Shown here: positions 965-6,888 of the stretch, piece after piece
Layout of the letters: every line of letters begins with the position of its first letter
Position numbering within the stretch: the stretch's first letter is position 1
Source of the DNA: a virus
Reading direction: 5' to 3' (one strand)
Length of the DNA: 29,995 nucleotides
Virus record (IMG/VR): IMGVR_UViG_3300027810_000042
Location: 1 to 29,995 of that record
The notes under the pieces: generated by a model
Seen by the model: only the letters and a program-made list of their open reading frames with translations
Told to the model about the DNA's origin: nothing
Database searches by the model: none
Translations under genes and position numbers: made by a program

Positions 965-3900
965 TTATCTACCGCCGCCGAAACCACCTTTTTTAAGTTG
1001 TGATATAGATGCTGCATCTAATGTAACTGTCATTTTAGAAGGCGTTGATCGTGGACTAGGACTGCTTGAGTTACTAGAACCACCGATACCAGTGACTTTA
1101 GAAATAGTATCTCCAATTTTGGAAATTATTCCACCTTGTTCTTCGTTACCTGCTTGTACAGTATCTTTAAATTCATTTAGCATAGATGCTAGATTATTTA
1201 AGGCATCTTCTAATGATTCTCCCATTTGAGCTAATACATCACCAGGTGAACCACCATGTGAAAGTACTCCTAATGCTTCAAACATCTTTCTAGATTCAAC
1301 AAGTTTGGTTAAATCAATTGCATTTATTGCGTTTGCTACTTTAGGCATACTATTACCTGACATACTAACGCTTGAACCTATTTGTTCCCAAAGTTCTGTT
1401 TGAGCTTCGTATCCTGCAATTGGCCTTAACATACTAACTCTACCAACAAATAGATTACTAAATTCCTCTGCTTTGTCTATGTCTAAAGAATTAATTGCAT
1501 TTGTTAATTTTGGAGCTGTATTTCCAATTCTTTCATATGATTTACCTACTTCAGTAAATAATGTTGTTTTTGAACTAAGATCTCCTGATTCCATTGAACC
1601 ACCATATATTACAGTAAATGCATCTAATTGAGCTGCGTCTACTGTTCCTACTGATCCTACGATTAGTGGAATGGCAATTGCCATTTGTAAATATGCATGT
1701 TTTAAAGTATTCAAAAACTTACTTTTAGCACCGAATGATTCAGGATCAGATTCTCCTCCAAATATACTTGCAAATGCTTTAGCCTTGTCTACTGTAAATT
1801 GAGCAATAGAATCTATTATTAATGGAATTGCTACACCTAATTTCTTATATGTGCCTCCTATAGTAGCTACTAATGTAGCTTTAGCTTTTATAACTGAAGC
1901 ATCTTCACCTGTACCTGTGATAGCATCTATTATTGCTGTAACTTTTTCTCTAACATCTACAGCGTCTGTTATTTTAGATGTAATTTTTACTACATTATCA
2001 ACAGTTCCTGCTAAACTTGTATATGGTGCAGCTAAATCTAAAACGATCTGTGCTCCTTTTTCAAAATTAGATGAAGAGAACCATCCACCACCATCACCAG
2101 CACCAGAAGCACCAACTTCTTCAAAGACTCCAGAAAGGCCGAGGATCAATGCTTTTGTATTTTTAGATAATTCGTCAACTATTTTGTCAACACTAGATAT
2201 AGACTCATATCCTGTTGCTTTACCATCTTTATCAAATCCTGTAGGAAATTTAAGATTGGCCATGTTCTGTACTCCATTTGCTAAATTATAAAGAGGCTCA
2301 CCCATCTTTTTAACAACGTTAATACCCTTTTCATATGTACTACTAGTAAACCAAGTACTACCTTGAGCTGCTTTGCCTCCACCAACTTCTGCAAATACAG
2401 CGGTTAAACCATTTACTATTAATCTAGTATTGGCTATTAATGCTGGAACCGCTGTTGATAAATCTATTGTTTGATATCCTGTTGGTTTACCATCTTTATC
2501 AAATCCTGTAGGGAATTTAAGCATTGCCATAGCTTGTACGCCCATTGCAATACCTGTAAGTGCACTACCCATTCCACCTACGGCAGAAATACCCATTGCA
2601 ACTACTGATTGACCAGAAGTATCTCCTGTTAATGCGGATAACAAAGATTTACCTCCACCTGGATATTTATTACCTACCTCTGCAAATGTGTCCGCTAGAC
2701 CACTCACAATAAGTTGCATATTTGTTTTCAATGATGAAAGATCTGCAGTTTTGGCTATTTCTGCAAATTTTTGAAGCCCGAGGGAAATTGCTATCAAAGC
2801 AGTACCCGCTAATAATATCATCGGTGCGCCTGTTGCAATACCTATAATTGAAAGTGGATTTAGTGACATACCATCTGCGATGGCATCCATTGCAGTTTCA
2901 AAGTTTGTCTTTTTACCTCCAAAGAATCCTCTTTCTCCTGACCAATCAAATGCTTTAGTACCCTTTTGCGAAAGTGTTCCTAATTTACTAAAGTTTATTG
3001 TACTAAGTATAGCTAATGCACCTCCTAATAAAACAGTAGCTGCACCTGCAATTATCATTGCGGCAGAACCTAGTATAATAAGTGGAGATGCTAAACCTGC
3101 TGCAGCCATTGCAACTGCAATACCTGCAATAATTGCACCCATTGTGAGAACTTCTTCCGATGTAATACCTTTAACCGCAGCTGCCATTGAAGCTGTACCT
3201 ATTGCTATTACTATTAAAGCTGCGCCTGCAAGTATCATCGCGGCAGAACCTAATGCTATTGCTAACGGTATTGGACCTGCTCCCGCTATTCCAAATGCTA
3301 ATCCAACCCCAACTATAACTGCGGCTATCATTCCAAGATCTTCCCATTTAACTCCTTCTAATGCCTTGGTCATTGCCCATACACCAATAGCTATTACTAT
3401 CATTGCACCACCCGCAAACATCATTGCGATGGATCCAGATTTAATTTGTTTCTCGGCTAATCCTGCAAGTGCGAAGACAATACCTATACCTCCAATGACT
3501 GCAAGAACTCTAAATGAATTCATTACGTCATCTGTATCAAAATCTCCTAAGATCATGTTCATGAACCAAATTGCGATTGAAACCGCTAATATAGCTCCAG
3601 CAACATATAACATTGCTTTTCCACCACCTTCTATTTTATCACTAAATGTTCCTATTAAAGCAAATGCTGCCGCAACACCTGCAACTACTAAAAGAACTTT
3701 AGCAACCTCGGTGAATCCAATTGCACCTAATATCATATGTGATAATACTATTGCTATTGATGTTGATAAAATTGCTCCGGCTGCATATATAAGTGCTTTA
3801 CCAGTTTCTTCTATAGCCCCAGTAACACCTATTTCATTCATCGCCCAAAATATTCCGGCAATAGAAGCAATAACTAAAATTGCAGTACCTAAACCTGCTA

Positions 3901-4690
3901 AAATATATTCACTTAAGAATCCTATTATTACCAAAGATACAGTCAGTCCTAAAAGTCCTAGCGATAAATCCTTTAATCCTTTAGCAAATTCTTTCATGCC
4001 TTTCGGATCAAATCCCATTATATCTAGAACCATCATAATACCTGCGAGACCTAACATGATACCAGCAGCTACTAACACACCTTTGAGTGCATATGTTGCT
4101 AACAATCCAACTAATACTAAACTCACTGCTAGTATTAATATGTTAACTCCAATTTCACCAAGCATGGCTATTTTTTTGAGTTGTTTCTTATCAAGTTTTT
4201 TGGTAGCCCACATCAGTCCATCGACCATTAATTTCAATAGAGGTACTATTACTAACATAGCCACTCCGGCTACTATTAATAAAGGTAACGCTAAAATCAT
4301 CATTGCTGCGAATTTTAATATAGAGTAACCTATATCTCCCAATGCTAAAAGACCACTAGTAAGAGCTTCCATTTTTAATTTAAGTTCTTTACCTTCAGGT
4401 GCTCTTTCTAAAGCATCTATAATTACACCTAAACCAAGTCCTATTGGTTCTAATGCACCTGCAGTAATTCTAAGAACTAATGCTTCTTTAATGGAAACTT
4501 TGCCGCCACCTTTACCAGTGTCGCCTTTAAGTGCCTTAACAAGCTCTTCCATTTTTTCATACAAGTCGCCACCTACCGAAACTGCGGCTGCAGTTTGGCC
4601 TGTGTTTATTGCTACTTGTTCTAGTGATTTGTCACTTTTGCCCATTCTTTCGAATGCGCTGCTTAAAAATTTTGGAATTAATTGAGCCAA
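965..4690 (-). CDS. Tail tape-measure protein candidate (1241 aa)
   Basis: This is the longest gene in the window. Residues about 115-640 are a series of hydrophobic Ala/Ile/Gly/Leu-rich segments separated by short charged turns, as in many phage tape measures. Residues about 630-900 hold three imperfect repeats of roughly 85-90 residues with a core like LIVxGLxxxFxEVG; the first two end with a nearly identical LKFPTGFDKDGK block. The C-terminus is a Ser/Pro-rich then Gly-rich tail. It lies directly after the gp26/gp51 pair, the place where contractile- and long-tailed phages put the tape measure after the tail assembly chaperones. T4 itself uses gp29 (about 590 aa) encoded elsewhere, so the assignment rests on context and composition. 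The start is TTG at 4690 (MAQLIPKF); no ATG lies in frame upstream, and the first in-frame ATG is codon 16. A hairpin and a late-promoter-like box precede it. Confidence 0.6.
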   Translation of the reverse strand: MAQLIPKFLSSAFERMGKSDKSLEQVAINTGQTAAAVSVGGDLYEKMEELVKALKGDTGKGGGKVSIKEALVLRITAGALEPIGLGLGVIIDALERAPEGKELKLKMEALTSGLLALGDIGYSILKFAAMMILALPLLIVAGVAMLVIVPLLKLMVDGLMWATKKLDKKQLKKIAMLGEIGVNILILAVSLVLVGLLATYALKGVLVAAGIMLGLAGIMMVLDIMGFDPKGMKEFAKGLKDLSLGLLGLTVSLVIIGFLSEYILAGLGTAILVIASIAGIFWAMNEIGVTGAIEETGKALIYAAGAILSTSIAIVLSHMILGAIGFTEVAKVLLVVAGVAAAFALIGTFSDKIEGGGKAMLYVAGAILAVSIAIWFMNMILGDFDTDDVMNSFRVLAVIGGIGIVFALAGLAEKQIKSGSIAMMFAGGAMIVIAIGVWAMTKALEGVKWEDLGMIAAVIVGVGLAFGIAGAGPIPLAIALGSAAMILAGAALIVIAIGTASMAAAVKGITSEEVLTMGAIIAGIAVAMAAAGLASPLIILGSAAMIIAGAATVLLGGALAILSTINFSKLGTLSQKGTKAFDWSGERGFFGGKKTNFETAMDAIADGMSLNPLSIIGIATGAPMILLAGTALIAISLGLQKFAEIAKTADLSSLKTNMQLIVSGLADTFAEVGNKYPGGGKSLLSALTGDTSGQSVVAMGISAVGGMGSALTGIAMGVQAMAMLKFPTGFDKDGKPTGYQTIDLSTAVPALIANTRLIVNGLTAVFAEVGGGKAAQGSTWFTSSTYEKGINVVKKMGEPLYNLANGVQNMANLKFPTGFDKDGKATGYESISSVDKIVDELSKNTKALILGLSGVFEEVGASGAGDGGGWFSSSNFEKGAQIVLDLAAPYTSLAGTVDNVVKITSKITDAVDVREKVTAIIDAITGTGEDASVIKAKATLVATIGGTYKKLGVAIPLIIDSIAQFTVDKAKAFASIFGGESDPESFGAKSKFLNTLKHAYLQMAIAIPLIVGSVGTVDAAQLDAFTVIYGGSMESGDLSSKTTLFTEVGKSYERIGNTAPKLTNAINSLDIDKAEEFSNLFVGRVSMLRPIAGYEAQTELWEQIGSSVSMSGNSMPKVANAINAIDLTKLVESRKMFEALGVLSHGGSPGDVLAQMGESLEDALNNLASMLNEFKDTVQAGNEEQGGIISKIGDTISKVTGIGGSSNSSSPSPRSTPSKMTVTLDAASISQLKKGGFGGGR

Positions 4691-4764: not shown

Positions 4765-5013
4765 TTAGAATTTAGGCATCTTCATTGAAGGTGCTTTCAT
4801 ATTCTGGATCTTAGGCATCGCAGGCGTTTTATATTTAGAACTCATATTGTTCTGTTGTTGCGCCTGTTGTTCTTCTTGATCCTTATTCTGATTATTCTTC
4901 TCTTTAATGTATTCCGTCAGATTTTTTAAATAATAGTGAAATTCATAATAATATAAATTTTCTATTTCTGAAGGTTGCATTCTGAGATGTATGCCCAGAT
5001 AGAACTTAGTCTT
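4765..5013 (-). CDS. gp51-like downstream part of the tail assembly chaperone pair (probable +1 frameshift product)
   Basis: This frame is open from 5136 to its stop at 4765 and overlaps the 3' end of the gp26-like gene in the +1 frame. The plausible protein starts near KTKFYLGIHLRMQPSEIENL, followed by YYYEFHYYLKNL. A helix with a PSEIE.., Y/F-rich motif is typical of gp51/gpT-type partners of tail assembly chaperones. The C-terminus is Gln-rich, then a Met/Pro/Lys tail (AMPKIQNMKAPSMKMPKF). Coordinates begin at the first codon after the proposed shift at CTTTAAG (5017-5011), giving a 416-aa gp26-51 fusion with 82 residues from this frame. The alternative is separate initiation at ATG 4980, giving 71 aa. 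The open frame extends upstream to a TTG at 5133, but those residues look like a shadow of the gp26 gene. Confidence 0.6.
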   Translation of the reverse strand, partial: KTKFYLGIHLRMQPSEIENLYYYEFHYYLKNLTEYIKEKNNQNKDQEEQQAQQQNNMSSKYKTPAMPKIQNMKAPSMKMPKF

Positions 5014-5026
5014 AAAGTAATTCTCC
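5011..5026 (-). promoter_or_regulatory. Probable programmed +1 ribosomal frameshift site
   Basis: Minus-strand bases 5026-5011 read GGAGAATTACTTTAAG. CTT is the last sense codon of gp26 and TAA its stop. A tRNA-Leu slipping from CUU to UUU would resume at AAG in the gp51-like frame. This is the arrangement of prfB (CUU UGA C with an internal Shine-Dalgarno-like element upstream). The frames require +1 or -2, not the -1 shift typical of lambda-type chaperones. Confidence 0.55.
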
Positions 5027-6016
5027 AGCGAGATCTGAAATAATGAAAAGACTTTTGATGCCACCTGGGAAGTCAAGAGGGGCTTTTGCGATCTCCCCTT
5101 CGAATTCCATTTCAAGTGTTGTTTCAACTCCAATTTTCATTTTTTCAGCTAGTCTATAGATAACCATAAACTTATTCTGATCCCATGATTTGTAATCAAC
5201 TTCTAAATTAAAGATTTTAGGTAAGTTTAATTGTCTCCAATCTGGCGTGATATAAGGTAATACCTGTATAAATGCTTTATCAAATTCAACTTCTTTTTCC
5301 TGACGATCTTTTAAATATTTAGTAATTTCTTGCATTACACCAATTGATGGTGGACGCATTCTAACTTCACCAGCAGATCTAGTTTTTATAACGTATGTTC
5401 TTTCTTTAGAACTATAATACGCTTCTATTTCAGTCGGGACTTCAGTGGCAACTAAATATCTACTAGCTAATTCAATATCTACTGCTTGTTTAGAGTGTTC
5501 TGTTTTTCCTTTAAGAATTAACTTATTTTCTGGTTCTGGGAAAGTAAGATCTCTGATTGCTAGTAAAAGTACAATTCTGTCTTCTTCTAACACGTCTTTG
5601 TATGACATTCTCTTATCACCGATCATTATTTGTGTACACATTTCTACAATATGGTTTAATTTCTCTTCCATATCAATGTAGTTGTTTTCGTCCATTGTAG
5701 AAAAGTGTCTAATTTCAGCAGCTCTCGCTGATCTGATCTTAATCACACATCCACTTGGATAGAATTTACCCTTTGATGGTAATTCTTCTTGATCAAGAAC
5801 CATCCAACCTAAGAACTGATCCGCAGTTCTTTCTGGCCTTGATTGACCAAAATTGTCCATGCTAACTTTACCCAATCCGGTAGAATCGACGGCGGTTAAC
5901 ATTTCTGCAGATACATCTTCTACTGTATCATCGTTTGTTTTAGTACTGTTGATATTATCTCTAGCCTCTAACATTGCTTTTGCAGCTTCTTCTTTTTTGT
6001 TTAAATCTTCGCTCAT
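5012..6016 (-). CDS. 26: gp26-like baseplate hub/tail assembly protein
   Basis: This 334-aa protein carries the pattern of the T4 gp26 baseplate family. Near residue 73 it has an ELPSKGKFYPSGCVIKIRSARAAEIRHFS block, then an acidic stretch with EEDRIVLLLAIRDLTF. The C-terminal half has the RMRPPSIGVMQEI helix and the ITPDWRQLNLPKIFNLEVDYKSWD region. T4 gp26 (208 aa) is shorter and is needed for baseplate hub assembly with gp51. The gene lies between the tail tube gene and the tape-measure candidate, the place of tail assembly chaperones in other tailed phages. The last codons are CTT TAA followed by G, identical in layout to the bacterial prfB +1 shift site, and a GGAG lies 5 bases upstream of the CTT. 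The start is ATG 6016, one base after the stop of the upstream gene, which indicates translational coupling. Confidence 0.7.
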   Translation of the reverse strand: MSEDLNKKEEAAKAMLEARDNINSTKTNDDTVEDVSAEMLTAVDSTGLGKVSMDNFGQSRPERTADQFLGWMVLDQEELPSKGKFYPSGCVIKIRSARAAEIRHFSTMDENNYIDMEEKLNHIVEMCTQIMIGDKRMSYKDVLEEDRIVLLLAIRDLTFPEPENKLILKGKTEHSKQAVDIELASRYLVATEVPTEIEAYYSSKERTYVIKTRSAGEVRMRPPSIGVMQEITKYLKDRQEKEVEFDKAFIQVLPYITPDWRQLNLPKIFNLEVDYKSWDQNKFMVIYRLAEKMKIGVETTLEMEFEGEIAKAPLDFPGGIKSLFIISDLAGELL

Positions 6017-6330: not shown

Positions 6331-6888
6331 TTAGTTTACTTCTTCAGCGTACACATCAGATTTCCAAGTGATCTCTAATGTTTGTACATCTCCTGATGAA
6401 TAATCTAATGCATCTGTAAATCCAAGTCCTGAAATGATAAAGCAATCATCTAATGTGATTTTTCTCCAAATGTCACCTTCTCTGTTGAATTGTACAATTA
6501 CAATAGTTCCTACGTAATTCTTTTTCAAGCCCATTTCACCAGTTTCTGGATTATATTGTGCTCTGTACCATTGACGTAATGTTTTGTATAAATACGCTTG
6601 GTTAGAATCATTTAAGTTCAATGAAAAGTTAACAACTATTTCTAGTGAAGTATCATCTACCATACCAGCGTATGATCTAGTAGCGAATTTATACTTCTGT
6701 GAGATAGCAGCAACATCTTTATGTAAACCTGCAAGACCTCCAATAGTATTTACATGTTGTAATAATAACTCTTGTCCAGCAACTCCGTCTGGAGGTAAAA
6801 TTGTTACCTCAAAAAGGTTAGCCTGTACTGGTTCGAAGTTCTTACCTTTCTTGCTTGTTTGATCTTCTGAATAATGTGGTAATGCCAT
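6331..6888 (-). CDS. 19: Tail tube protein
   Basis: This 185-aa protein fits the T4 gp19 tail tube family (T4: 163 aa). It forms the stacked hexameric rings inside the sheath through which DNA passes. Visible signs are an N-terminal NLFEVTILPP strand, a central QKYKFATRSYAGMVDDTSLEI region, YKTLRQWYRAQYNPETGEMG, and a C-terminal ISGLGFTDALDYSSGDVQTLEITWKSD block, all in the family's order. It lies 36 bases downstream of the sheath gene with its own GATATATAAA box 17 bases before the ATG, and is followed by a strong terminator. An independent transcript fits the high copy number of the tube. Confidence 0.9.
   Translation of the reverse strand: MALPHYSEDQTSKKGKNFEPVQANLFEVTILPPDGVAGQELLLQHVNTIGGLAGLHKDVAAISQKYKFATRSYAGMVDDTSLEIVVNFSLNLNDSNQAYLYKTLRQWYRAQYNPETGEMGLKKNYVGTIVIVQFNREGDIWRKITLDDCFIISGLGFTDALDYSSGDVQTLEITWKSDVYAEEVN

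Follow-up and report, generated by a model that had tools for sequence, protein, structure and literature searches.

The question raised by this locus is where, and in which direction, ribosomes might pass from a gp26-like tail chaperone gene into the overlapping gp51-like frame of a T4-like phage of marine bacteria. The window, by which we mean the whole stretch of DNA analysed, is a 29,995-base virus record standing on its own, and the genes concerned lie on its minus strand:

6331..6888, minus strand: tail-tube-like protein (phrog_32623, 1.2e-41; phrog_45, 4.4e-7), upstream of the gp26-like gene
5012..6016, minus strand: ORF for a gp26-like short tail assembly chaperone (G-type, TAC-N) of 334 aa (phrog_36717, 4.2e-23)
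4765..5076, minus strand: gp51-like T domain of 103 aa (phrog_634, 1.8e-6, from residue 10)
join 6016..5075 + 5076..4765, minus strand: predicted gp26-gp51 fusion of 417 aa, by a -2 slip
965..4690, minus strand: ORF of 1241 aa directly downstream of the gp51-like frame, assigned by position and size

The overlapping gp26-like and gp51-like frames sit between the tail tube gene, from which the gp26-like gene is separated by a small ORF on the same strand, and the 1241-aa ORF (4690-965), which, judged by its position and size, is probably the tape measure protein; no PHROG match was found for it. A KTSC-domain protein of 94 aa (PF13619, 1.2e-11) is encoded downstream of this probable tape measure gene, at 630-914 on the minus strand. 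Both frames are homologous to T4-like chaperones: hhalign gave 94.8% and E 5e-8 for the gp26-like protein against T4-like gp26, and 96% and E 3e-9 for the gp51-like domain against T4-like gp51 tails. Nineteen of 40 members of the gp26-like family match PF12322 (T4_baseplate), and no Pfam match was found for the window's gp26-like protein itself. Its AlphaFold model has a pLDDT of 82, and comparison of this model with PDB folds gave nothing better than E 0.55. An earlier note on this DNA had called the downstream ORF gp51-like, which its phrog_634 match (E=6.6e-6) bears out, and had proposed a switch of the tail-assembly-chaperone type ahead of the probable tape measure gene, which homology and gene order both support. 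The host is likely to belong to the Bacteroidota, because the named relatives of the virus infect Bacteroidota, apart from phage PAU, which is recorded under 'Sphingomonas'.

The downstream ORF, which ends at 4765, lies in the +1/-2 frame relative to the gp26-like gene, so that only a +1 or a -2 shift can join the two, as had been recognised earlier. The junction was compared in 80 related contigs, with gp26 identities of 66-91%, and in a wider set that adds 13 divergent phage records and some 150 further contigs, for 143 distinct junctions in all. What is counted as distinct was set by the stretch compared, the window clade contributing 41, 44 or 48 sequences, and all counts take related sequences as if separate; they are not independent events. 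Scans with the PAU and MaF61 proteins found one locus each. Positions given with a sign are counted from the T of the gp26 stop (0 = 5014), the window position being 5014 minus that number.

In every one of the 80 related contigs that covers the end of gp26, the gp51 frame is open across it, and in 142 of the 143 distinct loci, all except L096, it lies in the +1/-2 frame and overlaps gp26. The overlap is dual coding:

5012..5083, minus strand: dual-coding block, read in the gp26 (0) and gp51 (-2/+1) frames, delimited by synonymous-difference rates

Synonymous differences among 27 representatives occur at a rate of 0.410 outside this block and 0.038 inside it (p<1e-5 by column permutation, a test that ignores phylogeny). 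With its presence in 142 of 143 loci, this puts the overlap far beyond chance and upholds the joining of the two frames proposed in the earlier note. The block opens at -69, with GCCCCTCTTG (5083-5074 of the window, minus strand). Between this point and the stop, 69 nt further on, the DNA is nearly frozen codon by codon; upstream codons vary freely. Among 23 clade representatives, mean identity across the overlap is 0.691 for the gp51-frame peptide and 0.699 for the gp26 frame, with no stops, against 0.501 for the third frame, which has stops in 11 of them; an upstream control stretch gives 0.319, 0.227 and 0.190 in the three frames. A stop in the gp51 frame is present at -74 in 12 of 48 distinct window-clade sequences, and reading in that frame therefore begins after this position.

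The residues encoded by the overlap are judged, from sequence comparison, to belong to gp51. They carry the motif FSLFQISLxNYFK, and the phrog_634 match (1.8e-6) begins at residue 10 of the overlap-encoded peptide. AlphaFold predicts a single helix at residues 3-30 of the gp51-like part, spanning the overlap, with block-mean pLDDT values of 65, 80 and 93 for residues 1-10, 11-20 and 21-30. In L096 and L097, gp51 stands as a gene of its own that starts at an ATG; the N-terminus of its product, ILSMFKINLENFFKAKLALYYHLRMQPSEIE, is the same helix as that encoded by the overlap elsewhere. At these two loci (around 4965-5320) the gp51-like ATG gene follows directly after the gp26 stop, and both the overlap and the reading of the gp26 end in the gp51 frame are lost. 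Taken with the start of the dual-coding block, the comparison suggests that the frame change very probably occurs at or near 5083-5074.

The earlier note had placed it further downstream, at the end of the gp26-like gene:

5011..5017, minus strand: CTTTAAG, containing the gp26 stop and part of an inner RNA stem; not considered the shift site

There, a prfB-like +1 slip at CUU UAA G, with tRNA-Leu moving from CUU to UUU, would give a 416-aa fusion. We consider this reading very improbable, although the features from which it was built can all be seen in the sequence. The gp26-like gene (6016-5012, minus strand, 334 aa) does end in CTT TAA G, with GGAG 5 nt before the CTT; a +1 slip would lead into the right frame, CTTT ahead of a stop is known as a string for +1 shifts, the length is correct (334+82 = 416) and the first ATG of the downstream frame is indeed at 4980. 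CTTTAAG is also invariant in the 44 close distinct relatives, which its place in both reading frames and in the predicted inner RNA stem accounts for. That conservation does not extend to more distant phages: the string is kept in 35 of 84 wider relatives and 1 of 15 divergent ones, being absent from 49 and 14 respectively, and yet the two frames still overlap in every one of these relatives except one. Outside the close clade, the same protein ends thus occur with no conserved shift site at CTTTAAG, an outcome that the earlier note had itself named as refuting its proposal. The block start GCCCCTCTTG lies 57-66 nt upstream of CTTTAAG, which places the string about 60 nt too far downstream, and a slip there leaves the suppressed synonymous change back to -69 unexplained. 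It would also split the conserved helix in two, CTTTAAG falling mid-helix at residues 21-22 of the gp51-like part, and would lose FSLFQISLENYF, a stretch that belongs to gp51 in L096 and falls within the phrog_634 match. The gp51 frame had been said to be entered exactly where its helix begins, whereas both helix and family match start 12-20 residues upstream of CTTTAAG; the alternative, that gp51 is made only from the ATG at 4980, is contradicted by the conserved gp51 sequence upstream of that ATG. With the site placed too far downstream, the stop-codon-dependent mechanism falls as well. Of the proposed GGAG stimulator, the presence holds, but it is lost in 4 of the 44 close relatives and its spacing is 5 nt, as against 3 nt in prfB (PMC12421855). 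What the window shares with prfB is CTTT running into an in-frame stop (5017-5012); it differs in lacking the hyperconserved AGGGGG at 3 nt, in having G rather than C as the base after the stop, and in changing frame upstream of the stop, the T domain starting 12-20 residues earlier. A prfB mechanism driven by Shine-Dalgarno (SD) pairing would in any case be odd in the likely hosts, because in Flavobacterium the prfB frameshift reportedly works with low efficiency (PMC12421855) and Bacteroidia ribosomes sequester the anti-SD, so that SD pairing is blocked (PMC9976891).

At the start of the dual-coding block, two elements suggest a different mechanism:

5075..5082, minus strand: candidate slip site C_CCC_UCU_U (0-frame CCT CTT, -2 frame CCC CTC), invariant in all distinct close relatives
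5093..5098, minus strand: SD-like GGGGAG, 12 nt before the P-site CCT, with a possible function suggested by GAG codon bias

On CCCCTCTT, the P- and A-site tRNAs can re-pair two bases back, from CCT CTT to CCC CTC, with changes in third-base pairing only. Perfect re-pairing is possible in 44 of 44 distinct close relatives, and a near-perfect TCCCTCTY, with one first-base U-G pair, is present in four further distinct loci (L197, L203, L216 and L242). The stretch GCC CCT CTT is invariant. Its Ala codon, GCC, which precedes and overlaps the slip site, is a rare one (about 10% of Ala codons), and the C at -67 is invariant; since only a -2 slip needs that C, the invariant GCC supports such a slip. 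We put at roughly three in four the probability that a -2 slip at CCCCTCTT joins the gp26 and gp51 frames.

The -2 site is accompanied by a predicted RNA structure:

4994..5069, minus strand: predicted RNA stem-loop, beginning 5 nt after the slip site (RNAalifold; folding z-scores)
5069-5061 with 5002-4994, minus strand: outer stem of 9 bp, predicted by RNAalifold
5052-5048 with 5013-5009, minus strand: inner stem of 5 bp, predicted by RNAalifold
5040-5035 with 5028-5023, minus strand: apical stem of 6 bp, predicted by RNAalifold

RNAalifold gave -21.4 kcal/mol for 23 sequences of the -2 group. Folding z-scores range from -2.4 to -3.6 in 12 sequences of this group, from -1.2 to +0.4 in eight near relatives with UUU_C (described below) and from -1.0 to +1.7 in nine other relatives, and a dedicated tool gave z = -1.9 for a longer stretch of the window. 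Many of the stem pairs are broken in such relatives; the predicted stem goes with the -2 site and is missing where UUU_C is found (z about -3 versus about 0). Covariation support for the stem is weak, the changes among the 23 sequences being one-sided (G-C/G-U) with no two-sided compensatory pair changes found, and on its 5' side conservation is confounded by dual coding. Part of the predicted stem, however, lies past the gp26 stop, where gp51 alone is coded: here the pairing codons AAG (at +1) and CTG (at +16) show no variation among the 48 sequences, and a further AAG, at +7, also lies in this single-coding stretch. CTG accounts for about 1% of Leu codons in gp26 (13/1228) and is a minority codon further downstream (11/78).

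Comparison with sister clades suggests that the same frame is reached there by a slip in the other direction. The -2 string occurs in 48 of the 143 distinct loci and UUU_C, an in-frame TTT followed by C, in 91; none has both. Nearly all of the UUU_C sites are at the gp26 motif F-P/Q/R-x-G ('FPGG'), the codon after TTT being CCC, CCA, CCT, CAA, CGC, CGT, CGG or CGA, and by its sequence UUU_C should let tRNA-Phe shift +1 to UUC. Isolates with this sister site include Flavobacterium phage MaF61 and the Tenacibaculum phages pT24 and PTm1. In the best-sampled sister group TTT is found in 57 of 57 sequences and is followed in 51 of them by CCC, a codon that makes up 2.6% of Pro codons elsewhere; in 19 of the 57 a gp51-frame stop lies directly upstream of UUU_C. 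When the codon before the prfB stop was varied, UUU and CCC were reported to be the next most slippery (PMC10885494). In LR756504, CCC_A is the sole candidate slip site. The Chryseobacterium phages MA9V-1 and MA9V-2 (L083 and L084; gp26 ends at 3841 and 3913) have the same overlap and gp51 motif, and no recognisable shift site (UUU_C, CCC_N or the -2 string) was found in them.

Of the 84 distinct loci in the UUU_C group, 60 carry a perfect GGAGGT 16 nt upstream of the TTT. At sister loci such as L126, L143 and L175 its distance from the gp26 stop is about 79 to 74 nt. The Glu at this SD-like element is encoded by GAG in 73 of 74 cases, compared with 20% GAG in the rest of the gene, and at the SD-like element of the window clade it is GAG in 41 of 44 close relatives, compared with 23% elsewhere. 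The GAG bias in both groups is a constraint at the nucleotide level. To our knowledge, a spacing of 16 nt exceeds that of known SD stimulators, and the phages with GGAGGT have likely hosts that do not use SD.

The -2 site lies three codons upstream of the FPGG Phe codon, about 20 codons before the gp26 stop. In the window clade this Phe codon is TTC, not TTT, in 48 of 48 sequences; the +1 slip is lost there, and the window does not itself belong to the UUU_C type. Where UUU_C has disappeared, CCCUCUY and the stem have been gained, and the -2 site seems, from this distribution, to have replaced an older +1 slip in the window's branch.

Three other explanations of the overlap have to be set against a -2 slip, which is itself rare in nature. 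If there were no frameshift, gp51 could be made separately by internal initiation at TTG (5076) or GTG (5064) within the gp26 gene. Neither codon (gp51 frame, -62 and -50) varies within the window clade, and L096 and L097, where gp51 starts at its own ATG, indicate that a fusion is not essential in every relative. We nevertheless think this unlikely. In 17 of 52 distinct sister sequences there is no ATG, GTG or TTG from the last gp51-frame stop to the helix, which therefore excludes internal initiation at the usual starts in those phages, and LR756500, LR756501 and MaF61 likewise have none before the conserved helix. Moreover, L197, L203 and L216 have the slip sequence and the stem but not the TTG. 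Internal initiation would also leave the invariant C at -67 unexplained, and the predicted stem would cover the GTG. The gp51-like T domain is expected to be made only as the C-terminal part of the 417-aa gp26-gp51 fusion.

A +1 slip elsewhere in the window-clade overlap, for example on AAA_A at -42 or CTT_G at -63, appears quite improbable, even though close relatives would slip +1 at UUU_C in the same gene and AAA_A is conserved in 47 of 48 sequences. AAA_A lies inside the dual-coding block rather than at its start, and it is AAG in L056; CTT_G is CTC_G in L197, L203 and L216, which gives a second-base mismatch on a +1 slip. UUU is replaced by UUC in all members of the window clade, and a downstream stem is a hallmark of backward, not forward, slips. 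The chance that the arrangement is a sequencing error or a broken gene is negligible: the split frame alone speaks for it, and against it stand strong purifying selection in both frames and the recurrence of the arrangement in 142 of the 143 distinct loci, which come from independent assemblies and from isolate genomes. Transcriptional slippage was also considered and ruled out, as homopolymer runs are no longer than four bases at either site.

If a -2 slip does join the frames, normal translation of the gp26-like gene by most ribosomes would yield the 334-aa short chaperone. A fraction of ribosomes, stalled by the stem while CCU and CUU occupy the P and A sites, would slip back two bases at CCCCUCUU (5082-5075), the Pro tRNA exchanging CCU for CCC and the Leu tRNA CUU for CUC. 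The RNA stem-loop 5 nt downstream would stimulate this slip, perhaps helped by the SD-like GGGGAG 12 nt upstream, and ribosomes that have slipped would continue in the gp51 frame and produce a long form of 417 aa with G and T domains. By analogy with lambda gpG and gpGT, the short form would coat the tape measure protein, to which the long form would bring tail-tube subunits. The sequences show the dual coding and where it starts, the conservation of the slip string and of the predicted stem, and the homology to T4-like gp26 and gp51; from these we infer the slippage event, its direction and efficiency, and these roles of the products.

The likeness to lambda G/GT lies in a short and a frameshifted long tail chaperone ahead of the tape measure gene, but lambda slips -1; family searches of the window proteins, in which alone it was sought, found no sequence relation to lambda G or T. 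Shifts of -1, -2 and +1 all occur in the G-T frameshifting of different phages, and a 2016 review still listed T4 as the exception to it (PMC5009743). Few programmed -2 frameshifts are known, those of phage Mu, arteriviruses and Trichomonas vaginalis virus 1 (PMC5009743). Phage Mu shares with the window the -2 direction and a phage tail gene of similar kind (PMC5009743); it belongs to a different phage group.

That T4-like phages have G/GT-type tail chaperones, gp26 and gp51, is already known: as far as the work is cited in two later papers, some use a poly-T -1 signal and others have separate short and long chaperone genes (Vladimirov, Gautam and Davidson 2022, as cited in PMC10885494 and PMC12846349). 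In T4, gp26 and gp51 both match PF12322, and the phrog_634 tail is found in gp51 alone (residues 147-246, 1.2e-23). T4 alone has two PF12322 genes among the eight T4-like records searched, and no U_UUU_UUY-type heptamer was found at the end of its gene 26. In seven T4-like phages of other hosts, a single PF12322 gene precedes the phrog_634 part, which lies in the -1 frame, and a classical -1 heptamer is present at the same junction in homologous T4-like phages. The gp26 genes of S-PM2, Syn9, P-SSM2, HTVC008M, KVP40, phiW-14 and phiM12 (L277-L283) end in ...FF, encoded by TTT TTC or TTT TTT. A -1 slip at U_UUU_UUY is thus a feature of the frameshifting T4-like members inspected, not of the whole family. 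The G and T parts of the window are homologous to these, with the T part in another frame at the gp26 end. S-PM2-type phages, however, slip -1 at U_UUU_UUY, whereas in the window use of this heptamer was not found, the frame is +1/-2 and the shift would lie about 20 codons before the stop; T4 differs in having two separate genes, a short gp26 and a long gp51.

There is perhaps an even chance that recoding has been swapped repeatedly in one T4-like chaperone gene while its two products were kept. The slip would be -1 at U_UUU_UUY in cyanophages and others and +1 at UUU_C in most Bacteroidota phages; the window's branch would slip -2 at C_CCU_CUY, having newly acquired a stem-loop, and T4 and L096, each in its own way, have separate genes. 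In this scheme the switch might respond to ribosomes free of bS21, a possibility raised because the sister clades keep GGAGGT in hosts that hide the anti-SD. The influenza A PA-X +1 frameshift site is UUU_CGU. The UUU_C of the window's relatives would involve the same P-site Phe re-pairing, from UUU to UUC, but the codon in the window is TTC; the PA-X case is mentioned in PMC5009743.

Within the open-licence papers covered, the Bacteroidota branch with its +1 and -2 sites seems to be new, and in annotated records of Bacteroidota phages the two parts appear as distinct hypothetical proteins. The tail-chaperone rule would thereby extend to the Bacteroidota branch of T4-like phages. With relatives reaching the same frame by +1 in the same gene, an exchange of a forward for a backward slip becomes open to direct study, and the gp26/gp51 junction offers a test of SD-like elements in ribosomes that do not initiate by SD. 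Seen in none of the T4-like gp51 tails inspected, a conserved basic Met/Pro-rich tail, PKMPKVPSMKxPSxKMPKF, forms the C-terminus of the gp51-like protein in the window (4765-4870, minus strand) and in its homologues.
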